Of a stretch of 64,000 nucleotides of DNA, positions 1-64,000 are shown in pieces. Within the stretch, counting starts at the first letter, position 1; each line of letters opens with the position of its first letter. The DNA comes from Lumbricus terrestris (taxonomy: Eukaryota > Annelida > Clitellata > Crassiclitellata > Lumbricidae): assembly GCA_949752735.1 (NCBI GenBank), contig OX457047.1:3023782-3087781 (forward strand), read 5' to 3'. Both the position numbers and the translations under genes were made by a program. Under the pieces are notes generated by a model. The model had not been told where the DNA came from. It made no database searches and saw nothing but the letters and a program-made list of their open reading frames with translations.

Positions 1-464
1 GTCACGACGACGACGAAGCGCTAAGAACAGAGCAGCCTGTCAATTCCGGACTTCCGTTTCATTCCGTTTCATATAGCTCCGGGTTTTGTCTAGCCCAATC
101 CAAAATTTCTGTGGATGTCTATAATTGTCAGATTCAGGGTCGTCTTATCCATTAGGCAGAGCAGGCACCGTACCTAGGGCCTACGAACCTGTAAGGGCAG
201 ATACGAATGTCAAAAAGAGTTATTGACAAGCCACATAAATTTTGTTCAGTGCCTAGGTCCTACCAATAAAAAATAAACACGAAGTTTATAACCTTAAAGT
301 TTGTACTGATACACAATTTAGGTTAGGCTGCATTATTTTAGGTTTGCATGAACATAATGGCTTTAAATGTAATTTCCCGCATTAGGCGCTCATGAATCAT
401 GAGTACCGTAAACAGTCTGGGCTGTAACATGAGTACAGTGGTTGATATGACGTCACGAAATAAG

Positions 465-761
465 CATAGGCGGAGACCTGGGCCGAGAATTGGGGCGGGG
501 GACGGAAAGACGCGAGATTTTCCGAAAATTTCTGACGACCGGCGAAATCTCGAACAAAAATTTATTTTCGCCGCCAAAAAAGTTGATGACCTCTTTTTTT
601 TAGTCATCCGGCCAAAGCCAAAATCTTGACGAAATTTTCTCTTTTCGCCGCAAAAAAAGCCTTCACGCTCAAACATTGGGGGGGACAAATGCATGGGCCG
701 TCCCCCCAACACTTTTATTGGGGGGACCGTCCCCCCTGCCCCCCCTAGGTCTCCGCCCATG
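465..761. mobile_element. hAT-type MITE with 8-bp target duplication
   Basis: Ends are CATAGGCGGAGACCT and AGGTCTCCGCCCATG in inverted orientation, flanked by the perfect 8-bp duplication GAAATAAG (457-464 and 762-769). The second segmental unit holds the empty site (cacgaaataaggtgaatg near 8768-8790), which proves the insertion. It is 297 bp with no coding capacity. Its interior has the hairpin core GATGACC-T-run-AGTCATCCGGCC shared with several other MITEs in this window. Confidence 0.93.
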
Positions 762-1270
762 GAAATAAGGTGAATGTGCTTAGCCCTAAAACGGAGTTGG
801 CGTTGGAGCCTACGAATGCGAGACTGCCTACGACGACCTGAAAATGACCCCGCATGGTCAGATCAAGTCGCTGTTGAAATAAGCCATGCAGGTCTACGTT
901 GCATAATTTTACTTCTAATTTCTATTTCCGTTAACGAAAATATCACTGGTCTACGTTGCATAACTTAACGAGCAGGCCTTATTCAAAGGCAGACAAACAG
1001 CAGCGATAGACGGTTGAAGTTGTTCAAAGGTTTCTGCCTAACTTTGCCTGCTTGCTGGAAGCGTACTTTAGCACAACAATAACTACTTTCACACGAATGA
1101 ATAACTTCATGCAGACCTTATGTTATGTAGACTTTATGTAAGCCTATGTTTTCAAGGCGCCGAGTAGTCCGCATGATGTTAATTGACTCTAATTGGCTCC
1201 GGCTTTCCCAGACTGTGAAATTGGAACAAACCACTTATCCTAGATCCAGCATTTGGCGCAATGCCTAGTG

Positions 1271-1724
1271 CCGGTGTAAAGGTTTCAAGTTACCCCCTCC
1301 TAAACATTACCCCCCTGAAAACTGTATTTTGCATCAATCATCGCATTTATTGCACTAAAAAGATCAGAAAAATCATCCCGCTTCTTGGTTTGTTTGAAGA
1401 TTTTCATCCGTCATCCCACTTCGTGGTTTGTTATCAATATTTTCATCTGCAACTAAAATACTAATCGCCGCTGAAGTTACAATGGAGAAATGGCCTCGAG
1501 GCTTTTATTTCTTTTCGATCAAAAAATTGATAACTTACCACGAAGTGGGATGACGGATGAAATTCTTCAGACCAAAACAAGAAGCTGGATGATTTTTCTG
1601 ATTTTTTTTAGTGCAATAAATGCGACGATTGATGCAAATCTAGTTTCCGGGGGGTAATCTGAAACCGGTTTCAAGTTACCGGGGGTAATGTTTAGTAGGG
1701 GGTAATTTGAAACCTTTACGCCGG
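1271..1724. mobile_element. Inverted-repeat element with CCGGTGTAAAGG ends
   Basis: The left end CCGGTGTAAAGGTTTCAAG is answered by the inverted right end GAAACCTTTACGCCGG, and internal arms also pair (cacttcgtggtttgtta against taacttaccacgaagtg). It is about 454 bp, non-coding and absent from the second segmental unit. No clean short target duplication is visible, so the superfamily is unassigned. It resembles the CCGGTGTCACGAAATAGAG elements at 16625 and 37549 in end sequence and in C/G-run subterminal repeats. Confidence 0.7.
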
Positions 1725-1849
1725 CAATGTCTTTAGATTCGTTTCAGTTGTCGATTGCTGACTCTTCGTTCCTCACTGAACATGGCGCCTGCACATAATT
1801 ATGACGTGAGAGAGCGACGCAAACGTGGAGACTATATCAAAACTACTAC

Positions 1850-1857
1850 TAGGCCTA
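1850..1857. other. TAGGCCTA micro-insertion in an ACT repeat
   Basis: The sequence reads ctactacTAGGCCTActacgacc. Deleting GGCCTA restores an unbroken CTA run, and the homologous place in the second unit is a pure ACT array. This is one of the places where TAGGCCTA behaves as a 6-bp insertion at TA. Confidence 0.7.
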
Positions 1858-1885
1858 CTACGACCACCGACACCACAACCACAAC

Positions 1886-2262
1886 AACATTCATTCATTC
1901 GTTCAGAGCATTTATATAGCGCCCCTTCAAGAAACTACTCAGAGGCGCTCCCAGCCCAACCACGAACAAAGAAAAAAGACTTGAGAGACTTGTAGAACCT
2001 ATAGCCGGATGGACCACAGGTAGAGAGCGAAGCGCAACCGGGAGGTCGTTCCAACTGTAGGCCCCACAACCGAGAAAGCACGGCGCTGCTTAATAGCTAA
2101 GCGGGCCCGCGGGACCAGAAGCTCACCCTTAGCCGAAGAGCGAAGTACACGACGCGCTGCAACGTCTGAGACTGGACAGCAAAGAGCACACAAGTATGAC
2201 GGAACACAGCCAAGGGCACAGCGAGAGACTACAGCAGCAATGCGGTATGAGATCCGCTGGGA
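1886..2262 (-). mobile_element. LINE 3' fragment inserted in the unit 1 repeat
   Basis: On the minus strand the fragment carries the C-terminal motif of non-LTR reverse transcriptases (RRAFSVVGPTVGTTSRLRFAL) and then the 3' tail gggagcgcctctgagtag...ggcgctatataaat followed by gaatgaatgaat. The same tail ends other LINE and SINE copies here. It splits the ACC-rich repeat that is continuous in the second unit (near 9540-9580), so it is a later insertion. The clade is probably L2/CR1-like, judged from the tail. Confidence 0.75.
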
Positions 2263-2395
2263 CACAACCACCAACATCACCACTACCAACATCACCACCA
2301 CCACCATCACGGCCACCACAACAACAACAGCCACCACTACCAACTGTCACCACCGCCACCACCACACTACCACCACTACTGCTACTAATACTAAG
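2262..2395. repeat. ACC/CAA-rich low-complexity sequence, unit 1
   Basis: Irregular (ACC)n, (CAA)n and (ACT)n sequence about 450 bp upstream of the first receptor ORF. Its counterpart in unit 2 (9527-9690) is preceded by a very long pure ACT array. Open frames here are translations of the repeat. Confidence 0.9.
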
Positions 2396-2838
2396 TGAGT
2401 GAAGGAAATACACCCATACCAAATGTAATAGGCGATAAACATCCTTTATACATTAGACCCTACAATGATTATAATTTCCCATCTGTTTAAGCTTAGTTGC
2501 AGGCACTCTGCAAGTTTTTTTAGTTGTGGCTAATGGATCATTAGCGATAGGCCTACACAGACTGAAGTCAAGTAGACACGACTGTCGACTTCTAAACACC
2601 TGCTATAGGCCTAGATCTATACCGTAGGGCTAAGCCGTGGCCAAATGTCATGTAGCATAGCCTGGATTCCCACACAACAGTTGGAGCCTATTGGATATTT
2701 TATTATCTAGAGAGAGTAAACCTTCGGAAAAGCTGTGTCCTTTTGCGCACAATATTTTTTAAGTTTCGCCAACTACAGTCGAAATCTCGCGACAAGTTTT
2801 CTGTTTTAAACTGATCTGTGAGAAGTTAAACGAGGAAG

Positions 2839-3921: not shown

Positions 3922-4318
3922 GTCATCCATCAGCATCTTCACAAATGCACCTAACTTACTTTCAACAGGAAAGCGAGGCGAGCGCTCAGTCGCCATATAA
4001 CCGGTCGTACAGACTGGACGTTCAAGAAGATAAAGCTGGGAAGCGTTTCGACATTTATTTTGCGACATTAAACGTCTTCTGCCTTCAACGATTGAAATTG
4101 ACGAAGATTACTATTTACTGTATGCGAGAACCGTCTGAAAAACGTTTGCGATCGTTGTTGAACATTGAAACAAAGGAAAGTGAAGCGCTTCACTTTCTTT
4201 AATATCATTGTCGCTCATATTAAAATTATCCATAATAATTATTAATTGGCACACACGTAACGTCTTATTTAGCATACTTCATAATGCTTTCCGAAGTAGA
4301 CCTATCGGCAGGCCTATC

Positions 4319-5118: not shown

Positions 5119-5160
5119 CGGTGTCACGAAATAGAGTAGCCTATCCCCCGTATCACTATT
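5119..5160 (+). mobile_element. Fragment of the CCGGTGTCACGAAATAGAG element
   Basis: The sequence ggtgtcacgaaatagag matches the ends of the elements at 16625-17079 and 37549-37987. After gag those copies read TATCCCC; this one reads TAGCCTATCCCCC, a 5-bp insertion of GCCTA at the TA (5137-5143). Confidence 0.75.
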
Positions 5161-5301: not shown

Positions 5302-6457
5302 CAGGCCCGCCGAGAGGGCGGGGGCAGGGGGGCAAATGCCCAGGGGCCCGGCGACTTTTAGGGGCCCGGAGGGGGCCCGGGCTACAGTGATTGTAATATG
5401 TTTCATATGTTGATTACGGGCTGCGGGTCCAACCTTTAATCACCTATATTACTCAGCCTATTATTTGTGATTTATGTTGTTTTAAATATAGAACCTAATT
5501 GCTATTACTGTTATACTATTACAACTGTTTAAGTTTCAAACGACTGTCCATTACCTTAGTTATCAGTGTTTTGCCAAACAGCACGTTCACTTCCGTCTCA
5601 GAACGTTCTTTTGCTAAATTATGCGTTGTTAGATTTCAATCGCAAGTGAACAAATCTAAAATGATAAATTTCTCTCACAACGATGGAATATTTTATAAAC
5701 ACAAATCTGGAGCACAAAAACAAAAAGAAAAAGCTCGAAAAGTTTAAAAAGTTTGAAAAGCCAAAATTGGTTCTCAGAATATCAAAAGAAATGCAATCAC
5801 AGCCGGTTATTAGGCCTACTCCTACATCGGTTAATTCTGGTGTATTAAATATTCCTGCATGATGATCGTATTATAGGCTAATAGCTTAACTGAATGGATG
5901 AAAATGAAGTTTGTGGTGTTAATATCTTAATTCCAAATTAAAACATCATAAATAAGAATAATGAAAATGCTGAAATTATGGAAACTGTAAAGAGGTATCG
6001 AGGCATCGTTTTGATGTTGGCACTCTTTCGCCAGGGCCCGCGTTTAGGCCTATACCGGTACACAAACGAATGAGGCGATAATTATAGCCTGCTATTAAAC
6101 TTATAAGAAATGGCCCTACAAAAAATTCGAACAATTTTCCAGGCGATGAAGAAAGAGCATTTCCGAAGTGCATTTTTTAGGTTCGCAGACAAGATAGAGA
6201 ACTAACAGAATATTATAAGATATATTGTTGCAGCTATTTAATTAAGAAAGGTTGCTTGTTGATTACCATATTATTTGAAAATTTAATTCTTAACATTAGG
6301 AACCGATAAATGTAAGCATTGGCGTAGGCTACATTCATATCCACACTATTGTTATTTTTATTTGTTTTTGTGTAAATTTGCTCAATAAGTCTAAAGATAT
6401 ATAGTTTGGGGCCGTGACTGCTCAGCACAGGGCCCGGATTTTCTGTCGGCGAGCCTG
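5302..6457. mobile_element. Degenerate hAT transposon, 8-bp target duplication
   Basis: The 1156-bp element has ends CAGGCCCGCCGAGAG and CTGTCGGCGAGCCTG and a perfect 8-bp duplication AATACAAG (5294-5301, 6458-6465). The interior holds broken coding remnants. At about 5690-5745 is FYKHKSGAQKQKEKARKV, which resembles the KR-S-GA-KRK lead-in of hAT transposases. At about 5995-6040, frame RFDVGTLSPGPAF recalls the same families. All frames carry stops. The terminal structure is seen directly; the internal coding assignment is weak. Confidence 0.85.
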
Positions 6458-6989: not shown

Positions 6990-7840
6990 TGTTACTCCAA
7001 ACATTCATATTACCGGTAATCTTGGTTGGGTAAAATCGGGTCTACATGGTTAAACCGACAACTCCATAATAAAGGCTGTGTGGGACAAAACTAAACATAT
7101 TCGACATCTGGTTCGAATAGACAACGTGCAGGAACTATATTCTACATTGTACTACGAGTCGGATCCCTTCGTTGGTTAACCAAACGCAGCTGTTCGACTG
7201 AACACAAAAACCACGGATTCACTCGATGTGTTGTCGTCTAACTCGGGGTACACGTGGTGCGGATCCTAGAGTAACGTTGCGTATAGTTTGGTGGGACGTG
7301 GAGTTGCAACTGCAGACGGTGTTTTTAAAAAAGTTGAAACTGGAACCAGTATATGCTGTGTAAATGAAAACATTATATCTGTTGTGCATTTTTGTCTGCC
7401 TGTCTAGCTGTCTGTCTATCAATCTGTCTGCCTGCCTGCTTGCAGGGCTGTTTTTTAAAGGAATTTTCAGAACTGCACAACCCCTTCTTTCCTTCCCTCT
7501 CCTCCATGGTAAATTACTTCCAATTGGAGGACAATGACCTTTTTGCTGATTTTAACTGTGCAGAAGTGCTTCTGCAACTGCACAAATTTATTTAAAATGA
7601 GTAAAAAGTTAATAATATGAGAACATCAACTTTGTGTCGTCTAAGATAGTTACGCCGAAGATAAATTCAAACTTAACTATAATAACTAAACTGAAATCAT
7701 GGTACCGCCACTGATCTTTTCATTAGCGATGTGCGAGCGATTGCTAGCGGCCGATTGGGCCGGTGCTGTAGAAAGTTTCGATTTCTTTCGTCAAGAGCTA
7801 GCTATGTTTACGCAATCCAGTCTTTAGAGAGAATGTCTAC
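6990..7840. other. Intergenic, no gene recognised
   Basis: I see no gene, TIR pair or recognisable transposon. A short CTGT/CTGC-rich stretch lies at about 7393-7445. Confidence 0.6.
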
Positions 7841-8207
7841 TGTCAGATTCAGGGCCGTCTTATCCATTAGGCAAAGTAGGCACTGTACCTAGGGCCGACG
7901 AACTTGTAAGGGTGTATGCGAATGTCAGAAACAGTCATTGAAAAATTAATTTATTCATTGCCCCAAAATAAAAATTAAATTAAACACAAAGTTAATAACC
8001 TTAAAGTTTGTACTGATACACAATTTAAGCTAAGCTGCATTATTATAGCCTACATATTAAGTTTGCATAGCCTACCCATAAAAGTCAGACTCACAGCTCA
8101 CCGCGGTGAAGGGGTGAACAATCAAGTAGGGGATGGCCTGCTGGGGCTATGCTAACAGTGATGAAAGTCTTGACCAAAGTAGCACCTAGGGCGCTACGCG
8201 TGTTGGA

Positions 8208-9536: not shown

Positions 9537-10125
9537 CGACACCACAACCACAACAACAACCACCACCATCACCACTACCAACATCACCACCTCTGCCACC
9601 ACGGCCACCACCACAACAACAACCACCACTACCAACTGTCTCCACCGCCACCACCACAACACTACCACCACTACTGTTACTATTGCTAAGTGAGTGAAGG
9701 AAATACATCCGTACCAAATGTAATAGGCGCTAAACATCCTTTGTACAGTAGACCATACAATATTATAATTTCCCATCTGTTCATGCTTAGTTGCAGACAC
9801 TCGGCTAGTTTTTTTAGTTGTGGCTAATGGATCATTAGCGATAGGCCTACACAGACTGAAGTCAAGTAGACACGACTGTCGACTTCCAAACGCCTGCTAT
9901 TATAGATCTATACCGTACGGGCTGAGCCGCGGCCCAATGTCATGTAGCGAAGCCTTGATTCCAACACAAGAGTGGCAGCCAGCATTGACCTATTTAACAT
10001 TTTTTGATCTTGAGAAAACCTGTATCCTTTTGCGCACAATGTTTTAATAGTTTCGCCAACTACAGTCGAAGTCTGGCGACGAGTTTTCTGTTTTAAGCTG
10101 ATCTGTGAGAAGTTGAATGAGGAAG

Positions 10126-11214: not shown

Positions 11215-12860
11215 ATCCATCGGCATCTTCACAAATGCACCGAACTCACTATTTCTAACAGGAAGGCCAGCGCTCAGTCGCCATGTAACCGGTCGTAAAA
11301 ACTGGACGTTCAAGAAGATGAAACACTGGGAAGCGTTTCGACATTAACTTTGCGACATGAAACGTCTTCTGCCTTTAGCGATTGAAATTGACGATGATTA
11401 CTGTATGCGAGAACCATCTGAAAGACGTTTGCTATCGTTGTCGGACATTGAAACACTTCACTTTATTTTATTTCAGTAGGCCTATCGCTTATATCAAATC
11501 AACAATAATTATTATAATTATAATTATTAGTTGACACACACGTAACGCTTTTAGCCTACTTTATAATGTTCTCTGAAGTAGGCCTAGGCCCATAGCCTAT
11601 ATATCGGAAGGTCTATTATATTTTTGCTTTATCGAAACACAAGGCTTAAAAAATTATGATTTCGTGAATGTGCTATTTATGAATTGCCATCACTTTCTGA
11701 AAATACGGTCCTGCACACTGTTTTCTAACTATCGATAGCGATGAAAGCGTGCATCGTTGTAGTGGGAGTTTGAGGGCTTCCAGTGCGAGTGCCAGCCTAT
11801 TCTTATATTTTTGCATCATTTTAGGTGATGGTATCATACACCGGGGGGGGGGGGTAATCACCTACACCGGGGGGATAATGTCCGGGGCTTTTTGTACGGG
11901 GGGATAATATCCGGGGGGATAATGTCCAGGGGATAATGTCCGTTTCCCGTTGCGATTCTGCGAGCCCTGTATCTCGCCACCAATGGTTTTTCTTGACTCG
12001 TGGTTGATTTTATGCATTTAACTATTATATTGTTCTCTTAAATCGAATGTGAAAATCGCCCGCAGCTTGAAGACTTTTAAACGGTCAACTTTGTTTAGGA
12101 TATCATGGATATGGATGCAATTTGGTTAAGTGTTAGGCAGAGATAGGAAGAGAACTGCAACGTGGCAGAAAAACTTTAATGCAACGCAATGCATATTTAA
12201 ATGAAAAATAAGAGGAGAAGACGGGTGTGAAAGTTTAGGTTGGTGTGACATCAACCGACAGCACAGCCACGTCCACAGTAAGCCATAATATTATTAACTA
12301 GATACATAGCATAACATGATTATACGTGGTCTTATTTACATCTCGTAACAAATCATATCAAATTTATTGTGCACAACACTGTACAAGCTATGGGAGTATA
12401 ATATTCATAATATTCTAGTACCGGTAACAAGTAGGCACTATGTTTTGATAAAATAGCAGTTCATCATCTTACGCAGTAGGCTAGGAGACAAAATATTAAG
12501 AAATCAAGGCATGTGAGCCAGTTATTCTTCAAGCAAGAAGCAGTAACAGAAGTTAATGGCGGCGGATTGGGTGATTGGAGAGCAACGTCCAGGTTAGAAG
12601 GACCTATTTACCTGGGGGGGGGGGTGAATTGAAGATGAGAGAATCTTTAAAGGAGCAAAAAATATGGGAACATCGACTTTGCTTCGTCGAAGATTAAGGT
12701 AAATGTAGCACCAATGATGAATCCAAACATAATTTTCTTTTTTAATTTAATATTTTTGTTTTTTTATTTTTGTTTATTATTTTTTTAAATAATTATAGTC
12801 ATCAATTTACATGTCGCCAACTTCATGAGAAACGCATCGGAGACGACCCCGAACTGACGA
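11215..12860. other. 3' flank of receptor copy 2 and repeat-rich intergenic DNA
   Basis: Homology to the unit 1 3' flank runs to about 11800. At 11840-11950 is a cluster of G-run repeats (ccggggggataatgtcc) like the subterminal parts of the CCGGTGT elements. The rest is AT-rich with no recognised gene; I looked on the minus strand for later SLC5 copy A exons and found none. Confidence 0.6.
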
Positions 12861-13399: not shown

Positions 13400-13690
13400 T
13401 ACGACCTGGTAGGTCCATGGTTACCACTGGCACACCAGACTCATAAGCATCAATCGAAGCTTGACCTGCAAGGCAGTTAGCATCGATTCTTCACCCGCCC
13501 TCAAGAGCTCGGCCTACAATGTGGATTGTGGGTCCCGCTATCTGAAATGACCTCCCTCCCATCAGCCTTGAAATCGATGCTATAGGCTAAACTCCCCTCT
13601 AAGTCGCCCAAATCCTGCTTTTTAGGTGTGGCTGGGCTGGGAGCGCCTCTGACTAGGTATCTATATAAATTCACGAAATGAATGAGCTGT
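13400..13690 (+). mobile_element. LINE 3' fragment (L2/CR1-like tail)
   Basis: A broken C-terminal RT frame (about WIVGPAI-NDLPP) is followed by gtggctgggctgggagcgcctctgactag and ctatataaattcacgaaatgaatga, the standard LINE tail of this window. It contains TATAGGCTA at about 13583, possibly one of the micro-insertions. Confidence 0.6.
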
Positions 13691-14559: not shown

Positions 14560-15530
14560 TGTTTCAAACTGCTTTACTTCGGCTCCGTTCTGCTGGCGAC
14601 AGGGCCGGATTTGAACAGAGTGAGGCCCTAAGCACTTTCAATTGTGAGGCCCCACTTAAGAATAAAAACAGACAAAATGCATATTGCATAATTGCTAGAT
14701 CTAAGTATAGGCCTATTCCTAATGCATATTGTTTTTGTTGTTGCATTCGTTTAATTTAAAATCAGACAAATCCTGGTGACACACCACACCAGGTTGCATG
14801 TCAAAAATGTAAAATAAAACAGAAACAACAATAAAGTATAGTAATAATAAAGTTTAAAAAATAAAATAGCGCCAGTGATTCTTATTATATTCGTTTAATT
14901 GGCAACAAAACTGTTAGACACACTGCTACCACGTACAAAGAGTAGTTCAACAAATGAAACACAATAGGCTACCTAAAATTGTTTATGTCCATTGTCCATA
15001 ACAATTGAATCCATCTTAGGATGTGTGTAGAAAATTACATAAATAATTGCAAAAAGGGAATGTAGATCATTTGACATATTTAATGGGCATAGTTGGCTCC
15101 CTAAAAGTTCCTAAACAAAACAGGTGATATATAGTGTCTTTGATCCATGTTTGATCAACTACTGTTAGCATTCTTAGACTGTTAGTCTCTAACAGTATAA
15201 CGAGTCGAATTGTAATTGATGCACTCATTTTATTCCAGTTTTTATGGTATAGGCCTACATACTAAAAACATGAAGTTTTAGATAATCTTTTTCCTGCATT
15301 TCTGCATTGCATAATCTGCGATAATTATTTTTATTAATCCGACTTCAATATTGCAAGAATTATTTTCGTCAATCCGACTTGTATCCGATAAACACTGAAA
15401 CGGTGAAAACCGTGAAACCGATGCAATGGCGAATAATTAAATACGCTAAATGCGCTTTTACCAAAGATATTAGTTTTTAAACCCTAATATCTTAATATTA
15501 GGCTTTAGGCCGCCGCGCACTGCGCTCTGC
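14560..15530. other. Intron 1 of SLC5 copy A, AT-rich, decayed repeat
   Basis: An AT-rich stretch whose ends carry matching gccggatttgaa / ggccctaagc and gccctaagccgg / aaatccggcc sequences near 14605-14632 and 16083-16125. These suggest the borders of an old inverted-repeat element of about 1.5 kb (GACAGGGCCGGATTT...AAATCCGGCCCTG) into which the LINE tail at 15536 later inserted. No coding capacity is recognised. Confidence 0.5.
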
Positions 15531-15770: not shown

Positions 15771-16287
15771 TTTTACCATCGCTCAAACATTCAACTAACG
15801 TGTTTTCCTCATTTTCCGCCATAAACAATATAATATTAATATAGGCCTATCGGTTGACGCAGGTTATTACGGTATAGATGTCTGACGCAAGCGTTCAACT
15901 TAATTTTTTAAAGAACTGAGACTAAGAGTATGTGTTTTCGATCTTACGCATAAGGCTAACCGTATCAATTCCTAGTATAAAAGTTGACTGACAATAAGTT
16001 ATAATCAATCGTGAACTAAAGTAAAAATTCAGTGTCTTATAATTTAGATGTTCACTTTTGGAGGCCCCCCAGATCCCGGAGGCCCTAAGCCGGTGCTTAG
16101 TTGGCTTACATGTAAATCCGGCCCTGGCTGGCGAATAAAACCATAATTAATGGTAGAAGATACCTGCTGTCTTCAATGTGTCTGGTTAAAAGAGTTCAAC
16201 ATAAAAACCTATTTTAAGACTAAGGTCTACTGCCTGAGATGAGGTGCTGAGGTGCAGCCTTTTTTGCCGCCGCAAAACACGCCAGCA

Positions 16288-18078: not shown

Positions 18079-18455
18079 AAAGCGCCACTCGAAAGCCAAG
18101 CGCAGGGCACCAGCTTATTCACGAGCGCTGATGAGGTAGGCCTAACGTTAAATTCAATTTATTGCAACCGTCAACCATCAAGTAGGCTACTTAGAATATA
18201 TAATTCACAATATCAAGATAGCAAGTGGGAGAGCACTAAGGGATGGACATCTCGATTACAGGACACCCATTTTCTAATCCTACATTGATCGGTGGCAAAA
18301 CGGTTAACAGCGTGAATTGAAAGCCTTTCAAGTAACACAAGCAATAAACTAAATGGCAAATAATTAACAGAATAAGATAAGTGGAGCGAAAGAGAAGTCA
18401 ACGTATAGCGCCACTCGAAAGCCAAGCGCGGGCACCAGCTTATTCACGAGCGCCG
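18079..18455. repeat. Two copies of a CACTCGAAAGCCAAGCGC repeat
   Basis: agcgccactcgaaagccaagcgc...caccagcttattcacgagcgc occurs at about 18079-18127 and 18404-18452, and again at 27975-28028 with a longer 3' extension (gagagtagtccgtggtggtccgggtcgag). It is an interspersed repeat of unknown class. Confidence 0.8.
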
Positions 18456-47413: not shown

Positions 47414-47451
47414 CTTATAGGCTAAATAAATGTAAAATAATATTATAATAT

Positions 47452-48528: not shown

Positions 48529-49153
48529 CTGTCCAACACAACATGGAAACCATGAATTTCTTTAAGGAGTAGCCTAGGCTATTAGGCTATTATCTAATGA
48601 TGTGCAATAATAGTAATCTCTCATCATCACCTGATCATGGTGATAATGAGAGAAAGGCTGCAAATAGGAAAACAGTGATTGGTGATTGTGCAAATGATAA
48701 AAGTAGGGCTGTTGCTCTATTAAATAATTTAATCGAAATTAATCGCACAACTAATTTTTTTCAAAAATTCGGCAAATTTATCGCAACACATTTCTTTCAA
48801 GTATTAGGCTATGGGGCCTATTACTAGACCTACATTTATTTTTCTAAAGACCCTAAAGCATAAATGAATAAAGGCATAATTTCCATTACAAAAAATGTCA
48901 ATAACCTTTTGGCTCAGGCGTATATCTATTGAATTTCTGCATTTAGCTTATTGAACAGTTTTGTATAACAGACAGACTTGAAACACTGTTCAAATTAGTC
49001 AAATCCGTTAATTTTTTTAGTTTGAGTCACCTTTAGAATGATATAGGTCTAAATATGAAAATTACACAACCTTATTTCTGACTATTAATATTAATGATTT
49101 ATCCAGCCAATTGTTATGGCAGGCCAGTTAATTTACATTAGTCGGTTCAATGG

Positions 49154-50014: not shown

Positions 50015-50545
50015 ATGCTCTTTTTAATTAACAATAGTATATCCTACTATTAAACCTCATCAACTTGGTCAGACATTTTCACAAGCGTGTGCAGTTCTTG
50101 CCACACTTCATCTCTTTTGTCCTTCTGTAAGCATTTAGATTATTAGTTGAAACCTGGATCTTGACATCTCTTGGAGTTCAACCAATTTTAGTCTGACGGG
50201 ATGCCGAAGCAATTTTAGCGGCTGTGCGATGCGGCCGATGTGCCAGCGGTTCATCGTTAGCGATAGGCCTATAGCCGCATGTTTTGGTTTGTATGCAGGC
50301 GATAATTGAGCGACGAAGGGCTACGATTACACTCTTGGAATATTTGCAACGAATGTATCTCTATAGTTTTAAATCTGAGCTGCCCGTTTAAAACGATTTC
50401 TCTGCCTTTGATTCCACTTTAATCATATCCAATGAGCGCGTACGATGAATGCGTTAAACAAAATTAATCGCAGATTTTTGAGCGTATTAATCGCACGCGT
50501 TAATCGCGACTAATCAACAGCCCTAGTACTTAAAAGGTCATGATT
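50015..50545. other. Intron 6 remainder
   Basis: No feature recognised beyond TAGGCCTA at about 50267. Text at 50440-50525 (aaattaatcgcaga...gactaatcaacagccctag) matches 48700-48760 in inverse orientation (agggctgttgctc...aatcgaaattaatcgcac). These could be the ends (AGGGCTGTTG) of a roughly 1.8-kb inverted-repeat element that holds the hAT insertion. Confidence 0.5.
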
Positions 50546-50621: not shown

Positions 50622-50831
50622 CTACGAAAAAAATAAACAGGCATATCACTCAACTTACATCGCTTAATTAAGTCCGCATTTATAGTTCGTCCCTGGTAAG
50701 TCTACCATTAAAAATGGTTTTCGATGCAAACCCATAACGAGAAATTCCGCTAGCATCGTCAACGTTAACTTATTCATCGCCATAAAAATTGTCATGGCTA
50801 GTTGTAGCCTATAAGACTAGTGCATGCCTAC

Positions 50832-50912: not shown

Positions 50913-51120
50913 CTACGATTATAAAACATCCGTCGAACATAAATTTAATAGCAAGTGCTAACAATGCAGAGTTATCACCATAGAAGCTAAAAACGATCAA
51001 ATCGAATGCCAAGCGGAATAAAAGGTGATTTTTCCAAGAAATAAAAAACGGAAATAGGCTACGACAAAGAACAGACAACACAAATAAATTGGCTTTGTTA
51101 GCCTACAACTTGTAGGCCTA

Positions 51121-51955: not shown

Positions 51956-52340
51956 AAAGCACGCCCAATTAGTTGAAGCCCTCTACCATGATGTAGGCCC
52001 ACTGCATTTTAGAATAAATAATCTTGTGTAGGCCTACGCAATTTATGCCGAATTTTGAGCAGCAAATAACACAACTTTATGCATGGTTAAGCACTCATTA
52101 GGCAAACATTAATCCACATCGATTGTTTTACGCTTTTCTGACGCACGATTGCCCAATAAATTCGTTTACTGGTTTATTCGTTAATTGACTGATTGACCAA
52201 CCGAGTTGACAGATTGCTTTTGATCTTATATTCATTTATTCGTTCATATTATCCTAGAATCAATCATTCACTCAGCAGTAATTTTAAGAAGTCTCTAATA
52301 CAGAATGAGCAGCTTTTCCTTACGGAAGTAGACCACTTAC

Positions 52341-52408: not shown

Positions 52409-52964
52409 CTGGATAAAGAAAAAACATCATTTTGGCCTATTAATATTTTACTTTTAAATTACCTGTTTTCCCCTATCCATAGAGGCACTCTTATAATATA
52501 TCTATATACTAAGCACCTGTTTTACTCACGTTCGTGACATTTTCTTCAACTCAAAGCTATGTTTCATAGAACACAAATCATTATTAACTAGTGTCATGTA
52601 CTGTAGCCTATAGGTTAATTAATTATTAGCACGTTTTATGTAAGTACCAATCACCTGAATTCGTGATAAGACGAAGAATAATAGAACTTCTTGTTATAAT
52701 ATCTGGTTCTATATTTATGTCTAGTTAAGTCGCTGGTCTCAAGCCGACGCCTCTTCTATTTTACTAGCATTTCAAAAACTATAACAGTACTGAGTCCAGA
52801 ATATCTTGTCAAACGTCAGCATTGAAACTACGAAAATATGAAAATTTATGTAGCATGTCACTGTATACCGCGAAACAATTTGAGAACAGTGGCGTCACAA
52901 AAGCGTCATTTTCAGATTATTAGGATAAATTTTGCCTGACACATTAACACCTGCATCAATATTG

Positions 52965-53608
52965 GGTATGCGGATCTTTCGTCCAAGGACGATTCGTCAC
53001 GGACTGTTCGTCATGGCCTATTCGTCAAGCGGACGATTCGTCAGAGGACGTTTCATCCACGGACGATTCGTCATGCGGACGGTTCGTCACCGGACTGTTC
53101 GTCAACCAGTCAAAGTTGTACGAAATACGATAGCAGTTCATCCATCTTTTCATTTTGTGGCAGAGGCCATGGGATATCATTCACTGAATGCGCCCATTGC
53201 TGCAGCCCCAAAGTCGGTTAGAATGACAGTTGGTGCTGCGGTAGGTATCAGCCTCTTGAATTCTTCAAAAAGACTGTTGTAAGATAGGCGAGTTTTGTTT
53301 GTTAACAGGCAACATATCGCTGCTGGGTTAAATCCGTTGACAAACTGGAAGTGAATGCTGTAGAGTTGGAAAAAGAGAGACGGCACAATCTTACATGTAG
53401 GCTACCGTCAGCAATCCACACGTGGCCTATGTGCCGATAGTCTTTTATGTACAACTTTGACTGGTTGACGAACAGTCCGGTGACGAACCATCCGCATGAC
53501 GAATCGTACGTGGACGAAACGTCCTCTGATAGCGATTCGTCCGCTTGACGAACAGGTCATGACGAACAGTCCGTGACGAATCATCCTTGGACGAAGCGTC
53601 CGTGATTC
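52965..53608. mobile_element. Mutator-like (MULE) foldback element with 9-bp duplication
   Basis: Long inverted arms (about 52965-53122 and 53448-53608) are built of repeated GGAC-NN-TTCGTCA units. A perfect 9-bp duplication TCAATATTG (52956-52964, 53609-53617) fits Mutator-like elements. Between the arms, on the minus strand, lies a MULE transposase piece. Intron 3 of the transporter. Confidence 0.9.
53177..53435 (-). pseudogene. MULE transposase domain fragment
   Basis: Minus strand: HVWIADG, then after a 5-bp insertion KIVPSLFFQLYSIHFQFVNG, CCLLTNKTRLSYNSLFEEFK and VILTDFGAAAMGAFSE. WIADGTF...LFxQLYxIH, LLxNKT and MTDFExAA are the MULE domain motifs; the Asp of TDF is a catalytic residue of the family. 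TAGGCTA at 53398-53404 breaks the frame after ADG. Deleting five bases of it restores GTCKIVPS. Confidence 0.85.
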
Positions 53609-53838
53609 TCAATATTGTGCTCAAGTTACAATAATATTGCACTCTAACTAGAATAGGCCTAGTCGTGCTTTGTATCTCATAATTATGTTTTTGCTGAAAT
53701 GACCTTATTCTAATTTCTGTGTCAATAAACAAATCAATAGCTGTTCCTGGTGTATAGTTCAATCGTGATGTGATGTTGACAGTAAAAACGGTCGTAATTT
53801 TCGTATAATAGAAGTGTCAGCATTGTTCATAAATTTAC

Positions 53839-55095: not shown

Positions 55096-55621
55096 AATCT
55101 CAGGGAATTATTTGAATCGAATGGATTCGAGTTGGTAGGCTACAAGTCGCCCCTTTGGTCAGCAATGCTTCTCGAAGCTGGGAATAGCATCGTGCTCAGT
55201 GTTTTGCCCTCACCACAACATGTAGGTGAGGATCACGCACGCCCTGGAGACCTATAGAGTTTTAGCCCACAGTAGCCTACATCTGTTTTGCGTACCCCAT
55301 GACTTCGCTTTTGTGGGCGCTGTAGAAGTCTCGAGATTACGATTGCGATTACGATTAACTTATAACGAGGGTATATTTTCCTTAACGTTATCCTTTCCAG
55401 AGAATATCATACACTACTGATGCCAATAAGTTCTATATTCTTTGGTCACCGGAACTAATTTCACTGTCTAAGAACGTGCCCCATCTTTCGTACAAACGTT
55501 GCCTTATAACGATCTCGTGAACTGCTGATAATAACAGAAGATTAATCCAAGTTATAACAAGAGAAGTCCAAGTTTAATCAGTAGGGTCTACTGCTACATG
55601 ATAACTCAAATGCCCCCTTAC

Positions 55622-57039: not shown

Positions 57040-58005
57040 AAATCTCCTACAAGAAGGATAAAATAATTTTAGGTAGCGTAGTCGAAGAAAAAATTTGGTC
57101 AATGAAAATGGCGTCTCCGACATGACTCAGCCATCCGCCCAAATGTCGCGTCTCAACCCCCTTCCGTCGGCCGCTCATTCGTCCCCCCCCTTCCCCAATT
57201 CTGGACCAAGACTCCGCCTATGCCAGACTGTCCAGACACATGGATAAAACGGATGATTGGTTGGAATATTGGAGCTAATTGGATAAGGAGCTTGAATGAA
57301 AGCTCAACACGAGAGTTTAGTAGCTAAGCCAACGCAGAACACTATTATCTTCATCTATAATTCTATACTGTAGCCTACCTGACGTTGGTTATTCCAAGAA
57401 TTTGCCCCAACTAAAGATGACTACTGGCGTGTAAATACGTGGCCTACAATCGTGCGTTTCTCACAAAAGGACAGACTGGCATCCGTGACCACGTTCGCGA
57501 AAGTCTGCGCCTGAGTAGGCTTACACATGCACGCATGTATAGGGCTGGTTAGTGGTTGTGGTTACACACACTTTCAAACACAGAGAGACAGACAGACAGA
57601 CAGATTGACAGAGACAGAGCTGTGCATATGTATTGCACTTTGTGACCGCAACGAATATAGGCCTATAGTGCTCATAAAATATTACAACAGTCTTCGTTGT
57701 CTCCGTAGGCCTACCCGTATATAATTATATATAATTATTATTATTGGCGACTTTGTTGGGATGTAATATCTTATTAATAAACGGTCGTTGCGCGTCACTT
57801 TGGCTGGAGCTGATATTATTTTAATTATTGTATAATATTATAATAATATAATTTTTCTTCTGATGAACGCAGATGAGAGAGACGCCAATAACTTGTTATC
57901 TTCAATCGCGATAGTCGCTATAACTGCAATAAGATATAGTATGCAGATATAGACTATAAAATATGTAGTAGGCCTATATTATATAGCCTACAATAGAATG
58001 CAGAT
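57040..58005. other. Upstream region of the transporter, no second gene
   Basis: Contains a lone MITE end (ccaagactccgcctatg near 57210), an ACAG/GACA microsatellite at about 57583-57605 and several TAGGCCTA/TAGCCTA motifs. Any promoter for the minus-strand transporter should lie here; no core motif is convincing. Confidence 0.55.
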
Positions 58006-60894: not shown

Positions 60895-61735
60895 TTCGTA
60901 TGACTCGCCTTCAGCCGTGTCAGTGCCCACGTGGTCTGGTCACGTTGCTTCGTACAATTTACACATATTTTGATGCTGCATGTATCTTCGTTTGATTTCT
61001 ATTCGCTAGACTGCCAAAAGTAGTTTCATACACATTCAGTAGGTGGCAAACGATGTCCACTATGACGAATAATAGTGGCAGGAAATAATTATAATAATCG
61101 GACGTTGAACTGCCTCTGAGCGGTTGATACCTAAGGGACGCGTAGGCGTAGGCTATGCTCGCTATTGGCTTACACGACCCTATAACGTTTCAAATAACGC
61201 AACACCCCCAATCTTTATTAGAGCCCAATAGTAAAGTCTATTTTTCACACCCCGATTCCAAGTGGTTTGAAGTGGATCATAGTTCAACTCCCCCGCTATT
61301 TTTCCACAATTCTTACACTGCATGGAGGAGGGTGAGGCAAGAGCGTTGCATCTGAATGGAATAGAAATATTCGTGAGTTTTTCAAAGTTTCGTTTTTGGT
61401 ACTGCATCTCAAACGCTCATAAATATTTGAAAAACCCAAGAATATTTCTAATCAGCGTCAGGATCTCGTGTCAATATGGTCACTGTTGTTGTGTTTAAAA
61501 TTTCAGACAAATCCTAAAAGTTTTCACCGAGTTATGACACTTTTTGTTGCGTTCAACTTTTCATCCGGACACAGTACATGCAGTATTTGAAAAATAAGTA
61601 AATTTTCCAGGGGGTTGGAGATTGCCCTCTTGCGGTGGCCAATGGGAACTATAGGCTACTTGACTCATAATAATTACATAAATCTGTTGGACCGATGAAT
61701 AATTGATGGTTATAATAACAATATCATGTCATCGA
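60895..61735. other. Intergenic, no feature recognised
   Basis: Mixed sequence without a convincing gene or inverted-repeat pair; TAGGCTA at about 61149 and 61650. Confidence 0.55.
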
Positions 61736-61740
61736 TAGAC

Positions 61741-62079
61741 TGGGCCGGGCGGATACAGGTCTTAGCTTGGAAATTTTTTTTGCTAGTCTTTGGCCGAAAG
61801 ATCTGATGACCTTTTCTCAGTCATTTGGTTGAAATGTCATGAAAAATACACTGTTTTCCCCGCAAAAAATAGCTGGTGACCTTTTCCGTTTTTATTCATA
61901 TGCTGCTGCTTTTCTCCCTCTGCATTCATCGAATACTTTTTCAAACTTTGGATCCTATACTAAAATTTTCCTCTCTCACCTTTTCCCGCTGCATTGTAGA
62001 AACCTGTTGGGAGGGACACGTCCTGTGCCATTTTCTCAATGGGGGCGTGGCCGAATTGGTCCCCTGGATCCGCCCCTGT
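61741..62079. mobile_element. hAT-type MITE, CAGGGGCGGAT family
   Basis: Right end CCTGGATCCGCCCCTG is perfect; left end is diverged (gggccgggcggatacagg). Flanks CGATAGAC and AGATAGAC agree at 7 of 8 bases. Core ctgatgaccttttctcagtcatttggttgaaatg present. Confidence 0.75.
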
Positions 62080-62089
62080 AGATAGACAT

Positions 62090-63170
62090 AGGCCTATAAC
62101 AGGGAGGGAGATCAGCTGATTTTGGAGTAGTTATTGAGCAGGAAGCTGCTGTAATGGACGTCTAGGGAATTTTCCGAAGCAGGATATGCTCGTTTGCGAT
62201 ATCGCTTTCGGAGAACTCTGGTAGGCCTGGGCTATTGATGTAAAAATAGGTCTATCATGCTCGTGCCCTTTTCAGTTGCCTGTGATTCAATGATGGTTTC
62301 CAGTAATTAATCAATTAGCACTAACATTGGCCTGAGAAAACTGAATAACAATACAGTCTAGCAAGAGAACTGAAACCTAAAACTACAACCCTGTGTAATG
62401 CACTCTTGGAATATTATTTTGCAGCGCCCACAAATGTCAAGAAGACCAGCTTTATCGTCGGCGTCTACCAGTACCACCCTGTTCGTTCCGGTGCCAGGTA
62501 GAAATTCGATTAGGTCAAGCCAAGGAGGCAGTGTGGTGATACGGTGGTGATCGGTGATAGCAGACATTTGACAAAATGGACGTTAGTTTGGAGAAGAGTT
62601 CCTTGTTTGTCAAGGTATGGTTTGTTGACGAGTGGTTTTACCGAGCCTTTGAAGCACAGAAGAAGTTCCGTTTGATACAGACGATGGTGGCCATGTCAAA
62701 AATGACAATGCATATCAATAATAATATAATGGGCTCGTTTCTCAGATAAATCATCGTCAGCTGGTCTAGGCCTACGCTTTCCGCAGTAAGCTCGAATGCT
62801 AGACGGCCTAGGTTTATGCACGGACATTATAGTAAGGTTGTACTATGTGTCATAAGAACGTTTATAACTATATAGAAATAATTCCCGTATATGCGTGAAC
62901 GACCTTTGCTGTCATAAGATGTCGTTAAACCATCGATCTGGGTTAAGAAGTTGATTTACAGAGGAAGGCGATGTCTGCTTTACTCAGATGTGTGTTCAAC
63001 AAACATCTTGAAAGGATATTATTATTGTGTCTTCCTGTAGGATTCTTTCGTCGTCGTCTTCTGAAGGTCCCCAGGTCATGTAGTTGGAAACTTGAGACCG
63101 TCTCTCTTTCAGCTAGGGCAAATACACTTCAGTAGTATAACTTACGCCTCCCCAACATCAGTCTATAACT
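62090..63170. other. Intergenic, no gene recognised
   Basis: Short frames only. The stretch at 62360-62630 has mixed open frames without a recognisable motif. Confidence 0.5.
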
Positions 63171-63178
63171 ACCTTAAG

Positions 63179-63440
63179 CAGTGGCGTAGCCAAGGAGTTT
63201 CGGGGGTTAAACCCCCCATTGGTTTAGGGGAAAAGTTTTTGAAAAGGTTATTTATCCACTTAAATAAGAAAAAACAGAACAATTGCTTGTAGCAACAATT
63301 GTTTTTCTTACTTTGTTCGCTTTGCTACTTTATTCCCTTTTTATTTACTGTAATACTGTTGGGTTGGTGTCAGGAATGGCATCCGACCAGGCCATAAACC
63401 CCCAAACCCTTCCCATCATAAATTCCTGGCTACACCACTG
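63179..63440. mobile_element. hAT-type MITE, CAGTGGCGTAGCC ends
   Basis: 262 bp, ends CAGTGGCGTAGCCAAGG and CCTGGCTACACCACTG; flanks ACCTTAAG and ACTTTAAG agree at 7 of 8 bases (63171-63178, 63441-63448). Same end family as 33202-33625. Confidence 0.88.
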
Positions 63441-63511
63441 ACTTTAAGTACCGCCCCAATATGCATTCATGCATTTCACCGCCTACTCCTTTCTCCTTAC
63501 TTGGTGCTTCT

Positions 63512-64000
63512 TTTCCAGTGCCGGCGCTAGCACCCCCCCCCCGTACCCCCCAATTGGGGGGGCCCGAGTTTGAAAGGGGCCCCAAATTTAGCTGGTCATT
63601 ATGCCTATTAATTTTGTGACTGTGCAGATCCTTTCTGGTGCATGTCTCAACTAACCATATGGCACTGCCATAGCAGACCTAATGCAAATACCATACTGAT
63701 TTTGGGCGTAAGTATAAAGCCATTTAAACTAACTCAGGCAATTGCGTCCACTTTCTCAAACACAACGCTTATAAATTGTAACTTATTCTAATTGCTAATT
63801 GGATGATGCCTCAAAATAAAACCTGCGTGAGACCCAAACATTAAAGCCTGTGTAGGGTCCCATATGTCCTTGCAATGGTATGTGTCTGATCTCAAGTTTG
63901 CAAGGGGCCTCAAATGTAGCTGGTAATTATACCTTTCATAACTGTTCAATCCTGAAACCATGCACCGAATTATGTTTTAACGCAAAGCATACAAATTTAT
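63512..64000. mobile_element. Possible start of another hAT-type element, running off the window
   Basis: ccagtgccggcgctagcacccccc resembles the CAGTGGCGGCGC ends seen at 47871 and 51235, followed by ggggggcccgagtttgaaaggggccccaaattt. No right end before the window stops. Confidence 0.4.

Follow-up and report, generated by a model that had tools for sequence, protein, structure and literature searches.

A window of 64,000 nucleotides from the earthworm Lumbricus terrestris (assembly GCA_949752735.1, contig OX457047.1, positions 3,023,782-3,087,781, forward strand) raises the question of why a few short words beginning and ending in TA recur in it far beyond chance. The initial annotation of this window had estimated about 35 copies of TAGGCCTA where chance gives about one, and about 45 of TAGGCTA/TAGCCTA where chance gives about eight, and had read them as excision scars of a TA-targeting transposon with 5'-GG...CC-3' ends. 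Of the 13 coordinates it gave, nine are exact (1850, 9842, 11477, 15842, 32750, 32792, 41942, 20252 and 33812), whereas those for the sites at 36803, 57658 and 62767 are one or two bases off and its 2535 is really 2548.

Abundance of the motifs in the window and the genome

The estimates by eye were close: the window holds 37 TAGGCCTA against 0.9 expected under an order-2 Markov model, and 24 TAGGCTA plus 18 TAGCCTA, together 42, against 6.1 expected with simple repeats masked (Table 1). The longer variants reported earlier also occur, TAGGGCCTA twice (175 and 33812) and TAGGCCCTA once (20252). When 8-mers are ranked by z-score, TAGGCCTA is the top word outside simple-repeat words, and it is the strongest of the palindromic 8-mers with a z of 38.4, the runner-up reaching 17.7. 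The over-representation extends beyond the window and spans the genome, as had been proposed: in 1,056,305,194 bp there are 354,398 TAGGCCTA against 8,418 of the reversed word, and 460,350 TAGGCTA on both strands against 85,208 for its reversed word. The spread is uneven: among 20 loci lying at contig ends or close to them, many of which are telomeric, 9 have no TAGGCCTA. In nine long open reading frames (6,528 bases), which we chose as a proxy for exons and which are not curated exons, none of the 79 motifs is found where density alone would place 8.1, in agreement with the earlier remark that no copy lies inside an intact coding exon.

Table 1. Motif sites and empty counterparts in the window; "scar" stands for putative excision scar
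Feature	Position	Strand	Basis or remark
TAGGGCCTA, rare 5-nt variant	175..183	.	paralog 7890 = TAGGGCCGA, equal length
TAGGCCTA scar in (ACT)n-type tract	1850..1857	.	aligned copy at 9519 = TACTACTA
TAGGCCTA scar	2548..2555	.	common to paralog at 9842
TAGGCCTA	2606..2613	.	paralog 9900 3 bases shorter (TATTATA), no exact empty site
empty paralog of scar 11477	4134..4259	+	paralog alignment
TAGCCTA scar in repeat with 3,360 pattern hits	5137..5143	-	empty contexts at 17053-17086, 37550-37578
TAGGCCTA scar	5811..5818	.	word count
TAGGCTA scar (3-nt body)	5874..5880	+	word count
TAGGCCTA scar	6045..6052	.	word count
TAGGCTA scar	6325..6331	+	word count
empty-length paralog of scar 27547	7452..7497	+	paralog alignment
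TAGCCTA scar	8046..8052	-	word count
TAGCCTA scar	8068..8074	-	word count
TAGGCCTA scar	9842..9849	.	common to 2548
TAGGCCTA scar	11477..11484	.	paralog at 4209 exactly 6 bases shorter, TG at site
TAGCCTA	11552..11558	-	paralog 4270 = TAGCATA, substitution, no empty site
TAGGCCTA	11579..11586	.	paralog 4297 = TAGACCTA, equal length, substitution
TAGCCTA scar	11593..11599	-	word count
TAGGCTA scar	12477..12483	+	word count
TAGGCTA scar	13583..13589	+	word count
TAGGCCTA scar	14708..14715	.	word count
TAGGCTA scar	14965..14971	+	word count
TAGGCCTA scar	15250..15257	.	word count
TAGGCCTA scar	15842..15849	.	word count
empty site, TA only	17053..17086	-	34-base context identical to scar at 5137
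TAGGCCTA scar	17357..17364	.	word count
TAGGCCTA scar	18137..18144	.	word count
TAGGCTA scar	18183..18189	+	word count
TAGGCTA scar	19277..19283	+	word count
TAGGCTA scar	19284..19290	+	word count
TAGGCCCTA, rare 5-nt variant	20252..20260	.	word count
TAGGCCTA scar	20576..20583	.	word count
TAGGCCTA scar	20640..20647	.	word count
TAGGCCTA scar	21117..21124	.	word count
TAGGCCTA scar	21979..21986	.	word count
TAGGCCTA scar	25230..25237	.	word count
TAGGCCTA scar	27547..27554	.	joined form (TT): clean paralog L142; also window 7452-7497, L146
TAGGCTA scar	31299..31305	+	word count
TAGGCTA scar	31439..31445	+	word count
TAGCCTA scar	32040..32046	-	word count
TAGGCCTA scar	32446..32453	.	word count
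TAGGCCTA scar	32458..32465	.	word count
TAGGCCTA scar	32750..32757	.	word count
TAGGCCTA scar	32792..32799	.	word count
TAGGGCCTA, rare 5-nt variant	33812..33820	.	word count
TAGGCTA scar	35922..35928	+	word count
TAGCCTA scar	36565..36571	-	word count
TAGGCTA scar	36684..36690	+	word count
TAGGCCTA scar	36803..36810	.	word count
TAGCCTA scar	37437..37443	-	word count
empty site, TA only	37550..37578	+	context of scar 5137, one C fewer downstream
TAGCCTA scar	38172..38178	-	word count
TAGGCCTA scar	38194..38201	.	word count
TAGCCTA scar	39143..39149	-	word count
TAGGCCTA scar	39220..39227	.	word count
TAGGCTA scar	39834..39840	+	word count
TAGGCCTA scar	41942..41949	.	word count
TAGCCTA scar	45231..45237	-	word count
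TAGGCTA scar, ATT-rich tract	45710..45716	+	word count, flanks
TAGGCCTA scar	47010..47017	.	word count
TAGGCTA scar	47139..47145	+	word count
TAGGCTA scar	47418..47424	+	word count
TAGCCTA scar	48570..48576	-	one TA in common with TAGGCTA at 48575
TAGGCTA scar	48575..48581	+	one TA in common with TAGCCTA at 48570
TAGGCTA scar	48583..48589	+	word count
TAGGCTA scar	48805..48811	+	word count
TAGGCCTA scar	50264..50271	.	L139 paralog: larger gap, no clean empty site
TAGCCTA scar	50805..50811	-	word count
TAGGCTA scar	51055..51061	+	word count
TAGCCTA scar	51099..51105	-	word count
TAGGCCTA scar	51113..51120	.	word count
TAGGCCTA scar	52029..52036	.	word count
TAGCCTA scar	52604..52610	-	word count
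TAGGCTA scar	53398..53404	+	word count
TAGGCCTA scar	53654..53661	.	word count
TAGGCTA scar	55136..55142	+	word count
TAGCCTA scar	55273..55279	-	word count
TAGCCTA scar	57371..57377	-	word count
TAGGCCTA scar	57658..57665	.	word count
TAGGCCTA scar	57706..57713	.	word count
TAGGCCTA scar	57969..57976	.	word count
TAGCCTA scar	57984..57990	-	word count
TAGGCTA scar	61149..61155	+	word count
TAGGCTA scar	61652..61658	+	word count
TAGGCCTA scar	62089..62096	.	word count
TAGGCCTA scar	62767..62774	.	word count

Exact insertions at TA

The motifs were compared with paralogs, rather than alleles or orthologs, at 224 sites in the window and 30 fetched loci, 29 of which have a clean paralog. Ten of these 29 are empty, i.e. 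shorter by exactly the body plus TA, and 19 are filled, against 71 of 924 control sites shorter by the same rule. Among the filled sites, 16 are units of two satellites bearing a scar (5 units in L138 and 11 in L140) and 2 are one duplicated pair, so that 4 are independent; after collapsing, 10 of 14 sites are empty (Fisher p ~1e-8 against 71/924, the control not being collapsed). Within the window alone the joined form fits better at 4 of 8 sites, counting the site at 2606 which is not an exact empty site, against 16 of 148 controls, and the scar at 5137 is an extra case which the clean filter dropped owing to a nearby gap. In a test with separate anchors an exactly shorter paralog appears at only 2 of 27 sites. 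The dinucleotide at the 10 clean empty sites, with one paralog each, is TG in 4, CA in 2, TA in 2, TT in 1 and AA in 1, and the non-TA cases may reflect a TA target lost, or recently gained, in diverged copies. At a set of sites, then, the motifs are micro-insertions of exactly the body plus TA, and most independent paralog differences are insertions of 5-6 bases rather than point substitutions. Some scars are inherited: that at 2548 is common to the paralog at 9842 and is therefore heritable.

A high-copy repeat, matched by 3,360 pattern hits, shows the same change at one of its TAs, where about 95% of the hits have 0-2 bases, the empty length. The first 100 listed hits comprise 92 of two-base length, 4 at +1 and 4 at +5, +6 or +7; of the 172 hits with 3-16 bases, 100 listed ones comprise 48 at +1, 12 at +2 to +4, 10 at +5, 19 at +6 and 11 beyond. 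Exactly TAGGCCTA is found in 22 of 33 hits at +6, and exactly TAG[G/C]CTA in 14 hits; since contig C9 alone holds 9 of the 22, some probably go back to a single event copied by duplication. This TA thus exists in several states, of empty length, as TAGGCCTA and as TAG[G/C]CTA, and together with the paralogs it supports the earlier proposal that the motif equals TA with an inserted body and a second TA. A second family with an A-TA-T target (n=24) gives an ambiguous length spectrum: 2 at +1, 1 at +3, 7 at +4, 3 at +5, 3 at +6, 5 at +7, 2 at +10 and 1 at +13.

That the motif is merely the unit of one conserved interspersed repeat, as the two satellites might suggest, is scarcely credible and largely contradicted by these data: it lies in different contexts with empty copies, and the 37 flanks in the window are mostly unrelated by eye, except for the duplicated pair 2548/9842, with which the site at 50264 has only 7 preceding bases in common. 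The motif is not carried by a single repeat unit.

Product set and target preference

Between two TAs the body GGCC is observed 110 times against 2.4 expected (45.8-fold) and GGC/GCC 96 times against 19.9. Both lengths have a common target preference, R-TA-Y, which is the context of 55% of the 110 GGCC sites and 60% of the 96 GGC/GCC sites against 23.3% of TA sites; over 220 sites, GTAC is favoured 5.25-fold (~5.2) and TTAA stands at 0.16-fold. Genome-wide, TAGGCGCCTA is about 2-fold enriched (307 against 156). Selection keeping or spreading a functional palindrome, such as a binding site, would account for the perfect 8-bp palindrome and its favoured context of 10 bp, but we hold this very improbable, for two different lengths have their outer context in common, exact insertion gave rise to a set of sites, and the copies number hundreds of thousands, satellites and microsatellites included, with 0 of 79 in the long open reading frames checked.

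We consider it likely that the motifs are scars left in the germline by excision of a cut-and-paste element, Tc1/mariner-like and targeting TA, whose ends begin 5'-GGC...GCC-3'. Such an element would insert at TA, favouring R-TA-Y and above all GTAC, and duplicate the TA; at excision the non-transferred strand would be cut 3 nt inside the element, leaving a 3' overhang GGC on both chromosome ends, and end-joining would then close the gap. TA-GGCC-TA would arise when pairing is confined to the final, self-complementary GC of each overhang and the gaps are then filled in, and full overlap of the two overhangs around a G:G mismatch in the middle would give TA-GGC-TA or TA-GCC-TA; GGC ends with a 3-nt 3' overhang would thus predict the main enriched set. 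A point against this explanation is that other bodies, too, are in excess or occur in the same context: CCGG (9 against 1.6 expected, R-TA-Y share 0.33), CAGC (23 against 6.9, 0.52), GAC (41 against 27.6, 0.49) and ATTA (91 against 20.5, 0.40). The CAGC excess is at least partly due to one repeat in L123.

Two other overhangs have to be weighed. With the 2-nt GG overhangs that the initial annotation implied, the scars would come from TAGG and CCTA ends joined blunt or after trimming, and the source might perhaps resemble the element at 58006-59983, which is flanked on each side by TA and has ends reading GGGGAGA...; the small-number enrichment of TAGGGCCTA/TAGGCCCTA (together 7 against 0.84) also fits. 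We nevertheless find this improbable, given that G:G overhangs are unable to pair, that trimming should yield TAGGTA/TACCTA, which are not enriched (73 against 80.6, 0.9-fold), and TAGCTA, which is at 1.4-fold (59 against 41.2), and that G3/C3 products such as TAGGGCCCTA should occur, of which there are 0 in the 200 kb checked. The scar reading is supported, and the proposed GG...CC ends would be refined to ends beginning GGC that leave a 3' overhang of 3 nt. A 4-nt palindromic overhang GGCC religating directly, the 3-nt forms having lost one base, agrees with TAGGCCTA being the most enriched form, and is unlikely in that the genome-wide excess over reversed words is ~375,000 for the 3-nt forms and ~346,000 for TAGGCCTA: the former are about as abundant as the latter, whereas a base lost now and then should leave the 3-nt forms scarcer.

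Candidate source and known excision systems

A search of 294-314 kb of sequence turned up no resident element with TA-GGC...GCC-TA ends, and the transposon origin of the scars is therefore still an inference. The genome has at least 147 matches to DDE_3 transposases, many without stops, and none of these Tc1/mariner-type transposases was linked to GGC ends. Could the scars then do without a transposon, a TA-specific nuclease cutting and fill-in or a template-independent polymerase adding GC-rich bases at the breaks? The missing source element speaks for this, and the R-TA-Y preference fits a nuclease equally, but untemplated additions should vary in sequence, whereas GGCC and GGC/GCC are far ahead among the 3-4 nt bodies tabulated, with R-TA-Y kept, and CAGC and GAC show that preference with a much smaller excess; we regard it as an improbable explanation.

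A transposase as maker, GGC termini and a 3-nt overhang would find parallels and differences in known systems. Ciliate internal eliminated sequences are mobile-element-derived DNA excised between TAs, which leaves a single TA, unlike the earthworm scars, which keep 3-4 extra bases and are inherited. The Tc1/mariner (IS630) superfamily shares the TA target, the TA duplication and the DDE_3 transposases of this genome; it differs in that no such element with GGC termini was found here, and to our knowledge such termini are not among its ends. As described for this group, the 3' overhangs undergo NHEJ repair (PMC8151067), and the excision footprints given for Sleeping Beauty are TACAGTA and TACTGTA (PMC4378557). 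On these descriptions, Sleeping Beauty resembles the present case in that a duplicated TA flanks the 3 terminal nucleotides of the element in both centre-base forms (PMC8151067, PMC4378557), and as a CAG overhang yields TACAGTA/TACTGTA, GGC would analogously yield the present set. The body is CAG/CTG there and GGC/GCC here, the earthworm adds a third, 4-nt product GGCC, which by reasoning a CAG overhang cannot make, and the footprints so described come from experimental tumours, in contrast to several hundred thousand genomic sites. Among PIF/Harbinger, ISL2EU and relatives (PHIS), ISL2EU ends are described as mostly beginning GG, a likeness, with target duplications of AT within A|AT|T for ISL2EU and TWA for PIF/Harbinger (PMC4482050); the earthworm scars instead duplicate TA in R-TA-Y.

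Among the entries listed in our literature search there was no earlier description of this genome-wide scar pattern. The activity of the element would span about the most recent 9-16% of divergence, at a rate estimated at about one scar per 100 substitutions. The genome of L. terrestris bears several hundred thousand insertions of 5-6 bases, turning TA into TAGGCCTA, TAGGCTA or TAGCCTA, which look like healed transposon cuts.

Abundance and insertion-like behaviour of the motifs

The palindrome TAGGCCTA, in which a GGCC body lies between two TA dinucleotides, occurs 37 times in the window against 0.9 expected from an order-2 Markov model, and no other palindromic 8-mer there is so strongly over-represented (z 38.4, with 17.7 for the runner-up), while TAGGCTA and TAGCCTA, with a body of 3 nt, occur 42 times against 6.1 expected. 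In the whole assembly (1,056,305,194 bp in 331 contigs, the largest seen being 98.9 Mb; the window is C13:3023782-3087781), TAGGCCTA is found 354,398 times and the same word read in reverse 8,418 times; for TAGGCTA on both strands there are 460,350 copies against 85,208 for the reversed words, an excess of about 346,000 for the former and about 375,000 for TAGGCTA/TAGCCTA. Ten interior samples of 10 kb held 37 TAGGCCTA (in 8 samples) and 36 of the 3-nt forms (in 9 samples); in 20 samples taken from contig ends or close to them, many of these telomeric, the counts were 38 and 35, and 9 samples lacked TAGGCCTA.

The initial annotation had proposed that such motifs are micro-insertions at TA. Motif sites of the window and of 30 further loci of the genome, taken with 60 bases on either side, were compared intact and with body plus TA removed, the partners being paralogs in the same sequence pool of one assembly. 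A clean paralog was available for 29 of the 224 sites examined, and it lacked the body plus TA (empty) at 10 and kept the motif length (filled) at 19; the filled ones include 16 units of two satellites and 2 members of one duplicated pair, so that 4 are independent. Clean paralogs were available for 924 of 7,541 control TA-N3/4-TA sites, and in 71 cases the paralog was 'empty', many of these cases lying within AT-rich or tandem tracts. The difference between 10/14 collapsed motif sites and 71/924 controls gives a Fisher p of about 1e-8, satellites being collapsed for the motif sites only. A looser test of 232 sites found an empty paralog at 19/44 motif sites, several of them not clean, against 50/474 controls, and within the window the joined form was better at 4/8 motif sites, including 2606, which is not an exact empty site, against 16/148 controls. 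When the flanks were anchored separately, an exactly shorter paralog was seen at 2 of 27 sites and one of the same length at 16 of 27; this length test is too strict.

Single cases illustrate the comparison. The 34 bases around the TAGCCTA at 5137 are identical at 17086-17053 on the minus strand, where TA replaces TAGCCTA, and the same context at 37550-37578, with one C missing, again has TA in its place. The paralog at 4209 of the putative scar at 11477 is shorter by exactly 6 bases, and a repeat near a contig end (locus L128) has 30 empty copies. In an inverted repeat of locus L149, GGCCTA is present in both arms at different TAs of GTAATTAC, and since GTAATTAC is palindromic, this may represent two insertions, or one insertion followed by local inversion. 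Two pairs in the window, 2606/9900 and 11552/4270, do not qualify as clean empty sites. Exact insertions of body plus TA agree with the TA target and duplicated TA of Tc1/mariner elements, though 8 of the 10 empty paralogs have another dinucleotide than TA at the site: taking one paralog per clean empty site, the dinucleotide is TG at 4, CA at 2, TA at 2, TT at 1 and AA at 1.

The high-copy repeat around 5137 allows a view of many copies at once. A genome pattern search with the anchors CACGAAATAGAG ... TCCCCC gave 3,360 matches with spacings of 12 bases or fewer, and 172 matches with spacings of 3-16 bases, which leaves at least 3,188 (95%) with 0-2 bases. Among the first 100 listed of the 3,360, 92 had the two-base length, and 4, 1, 2 and 1 were longer by 1, 5, 6 and 7 bases; among the first 100 listed of the 172, the additional length was 1 base in 48, 2 in 5, 3 in 4, 4 in 3, 5 in 10, 6 in 19, 7 in 2 and 8 to 14 in 9. 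Exactly TAGGCCTA was present in 22 of the 33 matches longer by 6 bases, and exact TAG[G/C]CTA in 14 matches, the window's own copy included. These matches are scattered over many contigs, but 9 of the 22 TAGGCCTA copies lie on one contig (C9). Not all of them are therefore independent events, and a copy already carrying the scar may have spread locally; repeat copies that multiplied after gaining a scar would be counted more than once. A second repeat family, with an A-TA-T target, showed no clear length peak and is ambiguous.

Some scars are clearly inherited: one is common to 2548 and 9842 within one duplication, and two satellites each carry a scar, one in 5 of its units and the other in 11. 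The 24 neighbours that differ from TAGGCCTA by one substitution together number 112 against 67.6 expected, with 110 exact copies. A simple model with constant production since a start time, which considers substitutions at the 8 sites only, places the onset at 0.09-0.16 substitutions per site with a rate of 0.75-1.07 scars per 100 substitutions. The 3-nt forms exceed expectation by about 76 and all 24 neighbours together by about 44, which makes it unlikely that the 3-nt forms arose by decay of TAGGCCTA.

Product set, target preference and a possible excision mechanism

Counts of bodies and of the purine-TA-pyrimidine (R-TA-Y) context were made in the 270 kb left after masking, from 24 of 31 sequences (seven telomeric or satellite-rich loci were dropped). 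The G/C-only bodies standing out are GGCC (110 against 2.4 expected) and GGC/GCC (96 against 19.9); CCGG (9 against 1.6) and TAGGGCCTA/TAGGCCCTA (7 against 0.84) are enriched with small numbers, GC hardly (59 against 41.2), and GG/CC not at all (73 against 80.6). The R-TA-Y context surrounds 55% of the 110 GGCC sites and 60% of the 96 GGC/GCC sites, compared with 23.3% for TA dinucleotides overall, and in the window alone 22/37 TAGGCCTA and 27/42 3-nt forms against 1,804 of 9,026 TA; this outer context, common to both lengths, argues for a single process. The reconstructed targets of 220 sites in 304 kb are enriched for GTAC (5.25-fold), ATAC (2.41), GTAA (1.39, a class inflated by the 11 units of a satellite in locus L140 that were retained in the table) and ATAT (1.19), and depleted for CTAG (0.33), CTAA (0.26) and TTAA (0.16).

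Tc1/mariner transposases make their cut in the non-transferred strand a few nucleotides into the element, and the resulting 3' overhangs lead to footprints through non-homologous end joining (PMC8151067); for Sleeping Beauty, the excision footprints are TACAGTA and TACTGTA (PMC4378557). If the ends of an element started with GGC, its excision would leave GGC overhangs. Full overlap of these, with a G:G mismatch, would yield TAGGCTA or TAGCCTA, and a two-base overlap through the self-complementary terminal GC would yield TAGGCCTA; the last two bases of the Sleeping Beauty CAG overhang, unlike the GC of GGC, are not self-complementary. This scheme, which we infer from the product set, predicts the main products as well as the missing ones. 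The joint enrichment of GGC/GCC and GGCC with a common R-TA-Y preference would fit footprints of the Tc1/mariner kind if the putative element had the predicted GGC termini; that GGC and GCC are equally frequent follows necessarily from strand symmetry. TAGGCGCCTA, which would result if two GGC ends were joined in full without pairing, occurs 307 times genome-wide against 156.

Other known systems differ in their targets. ISL2EU/PIF-Harbinger elements duplicate AT in AATT, or TWA (PMC4482050), whereas the targets here are R-TA-Y with GTAC highest. PiggyBac uses TTAA and is excised without a footprint (PMC8151067), whereas TTAA is the least-used context here and extra bases are left behind.

Some mixed bodies share the R-TA-Y preference, namely CAGC (23 against 6.9 expected, R-TA-Y 0.52), whose excess comes at least in part from one repeat in locus L123, and GAC (41 against 27.6, 0.49). 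CATG (33 against 5.1) lacks the preference (0.21) and GATC (15 against 3.3) has it at 0.40 on 15 sites; the GGC-end scheme offers no explanation for the enrichment of these two. The corresponding TACATGTA and TAGATCTA are also over-represented in the window, with 10 and 9 occurrences, and are possibly scars of other TA elements.

Candidate sources and other features of the window

No TA-GGC...GCC-TA element was found in 294-314 kb. The searches took in inverted repeats flanked by TA, with TAGG starts in the window and with TAGG/TAGC starts across 314 kb (26 sequences), as well as the ends of repeat families that follow a TA (304 kb) and repeated 13-mers (294 kb). Pairs of TAGGC...GCCTA in five distance classes (294 kb) numbered 8, 11, 18, 97 and 205 against 5, 5, 36, 95 and 210 in inverse order, with no clear excess. 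The candidates GGCGCAACCAC and GGGCTGCCAAC were rejected, as they seem internal to the longer termini CATAGGCG... and TAGGGCTG..., which we take to be hAT-like. The element with GGGG ends at 58006-59983, probably a non-autonomous DNA transposon, fits as a source in its TA flanks but does not match the product set.

A Pfam search of 10 of the 132 ORFs of the fetched loci found no transposase. Genome-wide, scoring of 150 of the 2,198 candidates gave at least 147 matches to the Tc1/mariner transposase domain DDE_3; many have open frames, some of them 346-383 aa long, and they are not linked to the scars. Five frames with identical scores possibly belong to a recently active large transposon family.

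Features located in the window and DDE_3 frames elsewhere in the assembly
Feature	Position	Details
Duplication	2264-4304 and 9556-11586	86.5% identity, 2,072 columns
Two ORFs inside the duplication	2830-3921, 10117-11211	about 364 aa
Perfect (ACT)n microsatellite	9061-9527	467 bases, 155.7 units, 100% match
Dispersed short repeat, family D12	14101-14155, 15697-15751, 16383-16437, 19371-19425, 43221-43275, 47538-47592, 55015-55069	7 copies
Inverted copies containing GGGGCGGATCCAGG	38204-38284 and 62000-62078	
Encoded hAT C-terminal dimerisation domain	49321-49725	Pfam search
1.98-kb stretch with TA at both edges	58006-59983	inverted ends GGGGAGAMCGGGGCTGGTTGCAAC
DDE_3 open frames	C2:72341757, C5:6404599, C9:12649498, C9:13818797, C13:20450532	911-913 aa, identical scores

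The duplicated ORFs look like seven-helix receptors; a protein search gave 25 relatives, the best sharing 61-65% identity across 90-100% of the length, and Pfam at 1e-3 gave no match for the copy at 10117-11211. The D12 repeat, with the core GGGAGCGCCTCTGAGTAG...GGGGCGCTATA, may be a SINE, and in a background check its core had no exact match in viral contigs. The sequence GGGGCGGATCCAGG is reminiscent of hAT ends.

Implications of a putative genome-wide scar series

To our knowledge, most work on excision footprints has dealt with individual sites or engineered systems, and a literature search, mainly beyond subscription journals, found among the entries listed no account of TAGGCCTA or a like series as a genome-wide scar. 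Here one footprint-like series is frequent enough to show in the 8-mer spectrum of an entire animal genome. We tentatively suggest, with slightly less than even confidence, that a 'ghost' family, a single TA-targeting transposon family with GGC ends, has left about 700,000 germline scars in the 1.06-Gb genome, exceeding its presumed surviving copies by orders of magnitude. If so, the scars would form a measurable class of neutral mutation, at about 1 per 100 substitutions under the simple model, together with an internal clock of transposase activity. They would also give a count of past excisions and a target preference from thousands of events, as well as the spectrum of repair outcomes of 3' overhangs in an animal germline. 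The scar series predicts the termini of the putative element ahead of finding the element itself, and in genomes of this kind it would bear on models of indels, on analyses built on k-mers and on the annotation of transposons.
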